In this document: positions 7,759-41,965 of the stretch, piece by piece
Layout of the letters: every line of letters begins with the position of its first letter
Position numbering within the stretch: position 1 is the stretch's first letter
From: Meghimatium bilineatum
Taxonomy: Eukaryota > Mollusca > Gastropoda > Stylommatophora > Philomycidae
Reading direction: 5' to 3'
NCBI GenBank assembly: GCA_034231615.1
Contig: CM067298.1
Span: 61,534,387-61,598,386, forward strand
Length of the DNA: 64,000 bases
Position numbers and translations under genes: made by a program
Notes under the pieces: model-generated
What the model was told of the DNA's origin: nothing
Databases searched by the model: none
The model's input: the letters and a program-made list of their open reading frames with translations, nothing else

Positions 7759-7853
7759 TCACCTTGGAATAGCAACAGTGTCTTTAAGAGAGAAGGCATC
7801 TCTTCTTCCAGTCAGCAGTCCACACGAGAAGTTCTGTAGGGCATCGTGGGCCT
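7759..7853 (-). CDS. SKOR: SKOR exon 10: terminal exon with the conserved EAHDALxxFSC tail
   Basis: The acceptor TTTCAATCAG is followed by EAHDALQNFSCG (first codon split with exon 9) and 19 more residues ending DTVAIPR, then TGA at 7759-7761. Length after FSC (20 residues) equals that of vertebrate SKOR1, which supports this as the true C-terminus. A weak donor (AAG|GTGAAG) just before the stop leaves a small chance of splicing to a further exon. No AATAAA is seen on the minus strand in the next 700 bp. Confidence 0.92.

Positions 7854-41965: not shown

Follow-up and report, generated by a model that had tools for sequence, protein, structure and literature searches.

The Fuss/Skor corepressors are described in two published accounts as proteins that bind SMAD4/Medea and HDAC1/Rpd3, that act in repression and that are expressed mainly in neurons (PMC6382215; PMC8759651). 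The vertebrate members of this group, SKOR1 and SKOR2 (Fussel-15/-18, CORL1/2), contain a DHD that is followed by a SAND-like zinc domain. Their protostome homologue, fussel of Drosophila (fuss, CG11093), is described as containing Ski-Sno and SAND homology domains as well as a C-terminal coiled-coil region, and as giving rise to two transcripts with alternative N-termini; in the same account the zinc ligands of the SAND-like domain are given as two Cys and two His residues (PMC3413677). In the literature that was searched, no work was found on SKOR corepressors in mollusc neurons or on SKOR1 in Lophotrochozoa, and a text search with four SKOR peptide strings gave no match.

The locus described here, from the slug Meghimatium bilineatum, is located within a 64,000 nucleotide stretch of DNA, which in its entirety we refer to as the window, and it provides one further SKOR/Fussel gene that is of use for annotation. 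The slug protein has the same order of domains as vertebrate SKOR1 and SKOR2, and was compared with human SKOR2 over the DHD-SAND stretch, but in contrast to these genes its first two exons are frame-broken as sequenced. Its likeness to Drosophila fuss concerns the domains described for the latter. Ski and SnoN (1sbx, 1mr1, 3eq5, and 5c4v) have both domains and the zinc ligands in common with the slug protein, but they are set apart from it by limited identity in the DHD and by a gap in the SAND-like domain, both of which are considered below. If Drosophila Fuss and mammalian Skor1/2 are taken as models, the slug protein would have its role in neurons. SMAD4/Medea and other partners would be bound through its DHD and its zinc-containing SAND-like domain, a deacetylase of the HDAC1 type would be recruited, and the C-terminal helical region would oligomerise, with the outcome that target genes would be silenced. 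For the slug gene we infer this neuronal role, the SMAD4/HDAC1 binding and the repression by homology.

Domains and family assignment

The spliced product of this gene, with a single X placed at the frame break in exon 2, matched the Pfam families Ski_Sno_DHD (PF02437; 116 bits, E 8.4e-34, columns 20-108 of 109) and c-SKI_SMAD_bind (PF08782; 94.6 bits, E 4.2e-27, columns 1-94 of 94), and these domain matches are far beyond chance. The zinc motif C-x2-C-x11-H-x-H is present in the SAND-like domain as CSYCNMYFSPNKFIFHFH. No family was matched in NCBIfam. In the PDB, where matches were counted at E values up to 0.01, five distinct sequences were found, belonging to Ski (1sbx, the DHD, E 3e-15; 1mr1, E 2.1e-11), SnoN (5c4v, E 3.5e-12; 3eq5, E 9.1e-12) and Dachshund (1l8r, E 2e-5), and no SKOR was present among them.

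An identity of the gene as Ski/Sno or Dachshund, and not SKOR, would account for the Pfam domains, which are the same in these proteins, and also for the PDB matches, although the latter included no SKOR that could have competed. However, Ski 1sbx is identical to the slug protein in just 37 of the 87 DHD columns compared, whereas a human SKOR2 stretch of provisional sequence, which provides a lead and not a test, is identical in 76 of the same 87 columns and in 150 of the 174 DHD-SAND columns. It is because of this difference that the gene is assigned to SKOR in preference to Ski, and the assignment, based upon the provisional SKOR2 sequence and the distance from Ski, should be regarded as a lead. 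The SAND-like domain also shows a 2-residue gap relative to both Ski 1mr1 and SnoN 5c4v, in the loop that follows the zinc ligands (the I-loop); in Ski/Sno this loop is expected to be without deletion compared with Ski. A Ski/Sno or Dachshund identity is in our view very improbable, and the identification of a SKOR/Fussel-type corepressor, which had been made in a first-pass annotation of this DNA, is supported by the Pfam domains, by the distance from Ski and by the provisional SKOR2 sequence. The accompanying description of the match as gapless is not confirmed, in view of the SAND-like gap relative to 1mr1 and 5c4v and the break in exon 2; an ungapped match to SKOR was observed only with the provisional sequence.

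Scans for SKOR homologues in a collection of viral contigs and in one of prokaryotic genome contigs yielded 7 and 53 pattern-matching stretches, respectively, none of which was confirmed; a lack of SKOR homologues is expected in both of these collections.

The C-terminal 92 residues of the protein contain no proline and have a high content of E, R, and L. When the 653 aa encoded by exons 3-10 were examined by a heptad score, the eight best proline-free 28-residue windows were all located in the C-terminal part, and the best score there was equalled by 63 of 1000 shuffles, which constitutes a weak test. A C-terminal coiled coil, which in SKOR/Fussel proteins carries a leucine-zipper-like motif, is plausible, with weak support from this score.

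Exon structure of the gene

The gene consists of ten exons on the minus strand, extending from about 41960 to 7759 (Table 1). All ten of the exons that had been proposed for it earlier were located, with exact positions for their splice borders, including the junctions joining 35584 to 30187, 28878 to 20264, and 20153 to 14062. The proposed GT...AG borders were likewise found in all nine introns, where the acceptor is AAG before exon 5, TAG before exon 8 and CAG elsewhere, and the remark that the small exons are easy to miss is a fair one.

Table 1. Exons of the SKOR/Fussel gene, in the order of transcription (positions are those of the window)
Exon	Position	Strand	Length (bp)	Content and remarks
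1	41605..41960	-		5' limit uncertain; ends ..GTIMLHGVAIVSLVIDNK, donor GTAAGT
2	39785..39900	-	116	DHD core; frame break between 39862 and 39859
3	35584..35758	-	175	DHD end and start of SMAD4-binding/SAND-like domain
4	28878..30187	-	1310	SAND-like zinc domain, then long linker
5	20153..20264	-	112	Linker
6	14009..14062	-	54	
7	12007..12081	-	75	Possible coiled coil
8	10567..10641	-	75	Possible coiled coil
9	9968..10033	-	66	Possible coiled coil
10	7759..7853	-	95	C-terminus and TGA stop

According to the Pfam alignment the DHD begins in exon 1, and the linker in exon 4 appears by eye to be Ser/Pro-rich and then acidic. Exons 3-10 together comprise 1962 nt, corresponding to 653 codons and the TGA with no internal stops; their entry phases are 0-1-0-1-1-1-1-1 and all seven junctions among them are in phase. 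The matching phases reported in the first-pass annotation are thus found at each junction locally and throughout exons 3-10, but not for the gene as a whole, due to the break inside exon 2. The same annotation had considered the gene to be complete, and here it has to be corrected: exon 2 is frame-broken, the ATG at 41960 in exon 1 is out of the DHD frame, and no single uninterrupted frame extends from a start codon to the stop over all of the exons.

Frame breaks in the first two exons

Exon 2 is of a length that leaves two bases over after whole codons (2 mod 3), yet it is in phase 0 on both entry and exit. At its junction with exon 1 the product reads ..VSLVIDNK followed by ERLCLAQISNTLL, and at its junction with exon 3 it reads ..CVQCTPVQ followed by LEILRRAG. 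The two halves of the exon are in different frames, with ERLCLAQISNTLL in one of them and SYSYNEIHNRRVALGITCVQCTPVQ in another, and when the spliced product was compared with the window by tblastn, frame -2 was observed to end at 39862 and frame -1 to start at 39859. In the Pfam alignments the first half accounts for DHD columns 10-52 in the first frame, where by hand count the final two residues are already past the break, and the second half together with exon 3 accounts for columns 53-108 in the second frame. Both halves of exon 2 are therefore present, and in the sequence the two frames abut at an internal one-base break. As codon scores did not separate the two frames of this exon, the placement of the break is based upon homology. 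A tiny GT..AG intron within exon 2 (GTTACAG) was rejected as an explanation, since the removal of its 7 nt leaves the frame broken and it is far too short. No duplicate, intact exon 2 was found in the window, where, outside exon 2 itself and the last part of exon 1, the best tblastn match had an E value of 1.7.

The beginning of the protein is also affected. The ATG at 41960, which lies five bases inside the start at 41965 given in the first-pass annotation and near an acceptor-like ttcag just before 41965, opens a frame other than that of the DHD, and this frame ends after 64 codons at a stop (41768-41766). The frame of the DHD is open only from 41892 onwards, continuing through the donor, and its first ATG is at 41769. 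A codon score was trained on exons 3-10, and the scores of stretches in exon 1 were compared with those of overlapping non-exonic minus-strand windows, each taken in the best of its three frames. For the ATG-frame stretch 41960-41841 (120 nt), just 30 of 8605 such windows scored as high, and for the first 132 nt of this frame the number was 68 of 8584; for the 120 and 162 nt after the ATG at 41769, scores as high were obtained by 2505 of 8605 and 2177 of 8539 windows, respectively. The coding score is high after 41960 and not after 41769. These results favour a true N-terminus at the ATG at 41960, with a putative further frame break in the interval 41892-41769, although the observations could likewise be due to a different 5' exon. 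In the latter case exon 1 as mapped would be the wrong 5' exon: the protein would start at the ATG at 41769 (MMSDC..), or an upstream exon would be spliced to another acceptor within the interval 41892-41769, with the ATG at 41960 belonging to a small upstream frame. The open DHD frame between 41892 and the donor and the acceptor-like sites that can be seen by eye between 41892 and 41769 are consistent with this proposal, for which the alternative N-termini described for Drosophila fuss (PMC3413677) provide a precedent. We regard it as possible, though doubtful, in view of the codon scores of the two candidate starts (30/8605 against 2505/8605); it also leaves the break in exon 2 unexplained, while being compatible with the explanation of that break which we prefer.

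With regard to the cause of the breaks, we think it quite likely that this is an ordinary SKOR/Fussel gene, whose frame breaks are most likely small assembly errors and which is probably intact in the organism itself. The breaks in exons 1 and 2 would then be small indel errors, or artefacts of collapsed haplotypes, in the assembled sequence. The undamaged state of the rest of the gene favours either a sequence error or a very recent event, and the nine GT-AG introns together with the intact 1962 nt of exons 3-10 are evidence against decay of long standing. In exon 2 the break is situated in a run of just three A, and the homopolymer runs of the window showed no depletion and no signature of homopolymer collapse, so that an error of the homopolymer type receives no direct support. 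The presence of breaks in the first two exons and of none in exons 3-10 represents a slight clustering, which counts against assembly errors.

If the breaks are instead real, the gene could be a damaged allele or a recent pseudogene, from which the in-frame ATG would give only a fragment of 94 residues that ends within the DHD. This is indeed how the sequence reads as written, since the reading from the ATG at 41769 comprises 94 codons and stops at 35757-35755, in the first bases of exon 3, and there would be two breaks and not one if the ATG at 41960 is the true start. However, the 653 codons of exons 3-10 and all of the introns are undamaged, and one would not expect a developmental corepressor to be lost; hence, we consider such damage unlikely. 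A programmed ribosomal frameshift that joins the two frames of exon 2 has in its favour that an ungapped DHD would result from a backward shift of one base at 39861-39859. The standard slippery heptamer follows the rule X XXY YYZ, to which the site CTC AAA G does not conform, and this makes programmed frameshifting unlikely; to our knowledge there is also no parallel for a programmed shift inside a conserved folded domain, and the chance that the gene is decoded in this manner appears to be very slight. Taking the break in exon 2 by itself, it is rather improbable that it is genuine, in which case the SKOR/Fussel locus would be cut short in nature within the DHD, or its transcript would be decoded across the break, with the rest of the gene perfectly kept.

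Due to the break in exon 2 the gene is open to mis-annotation, and any annotation made of this assembly could shorten the protein, omit its N-terminus or classify the locus as a pseudogene. Ordinary homology-based annotation would presumably find the gene, and to this extent the feature is not surprising.

Other features of the window

The sole run of N in the window, 100 N at 52344-52443, is likely a scaffold gap; the SKOR gene is located entirely to one side of it, and a contig join was rejected as a cause of the frame breaks as this run is outside the gene. No tRNAs were found by ARAGORN with the bacterial code, and no Rfam family was present at the gathering score. A reverse-transcriptase fragment is located at 55874-56287 on the plus strand (Pfam RVT_1, E 1.1e-12, for a query with four extra leading letters), and a frame just upstream of it (55092-55376) is related by eye but gave no Pfam match at E 0.1. 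Within intron 2, a plus-strand fragment at 37096-37443 weakly matched DUF6451 (E 4.1e-5; 23.8 bits, under the Pfam cut-off of 28), and by eye it is similar to the C-terminal region of LINE reverse transcriptases.

Tandem Repeats Finder reported 56 rows for the whole window. The introns contain minisatellite arrays with units of about 28-46 bp at 8324-8767, 11144-11556, 15187-15746, 21658-22035, 26624-27342, and 27829-28404. Two further arrays, at 44697-44921 and 47160-47287, have a unit of 14-15 bp, are apparent reverse complements of each other (CAAAATATTCCCAGA and ATATTTTGTCTGGG) and are separated by about 2.2 kb. The minus-strand frames between them (45165-46164) are transposase-like by eye, with no Pfam match, and these arrays and frames possibly belong together as a single mobile element that has inverted arrays at its termini. 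Lastly, a dispersed repeat of 69 bp flanks exon 1 in two copies that are 80% alike (39964-40032 and 43237-43305).
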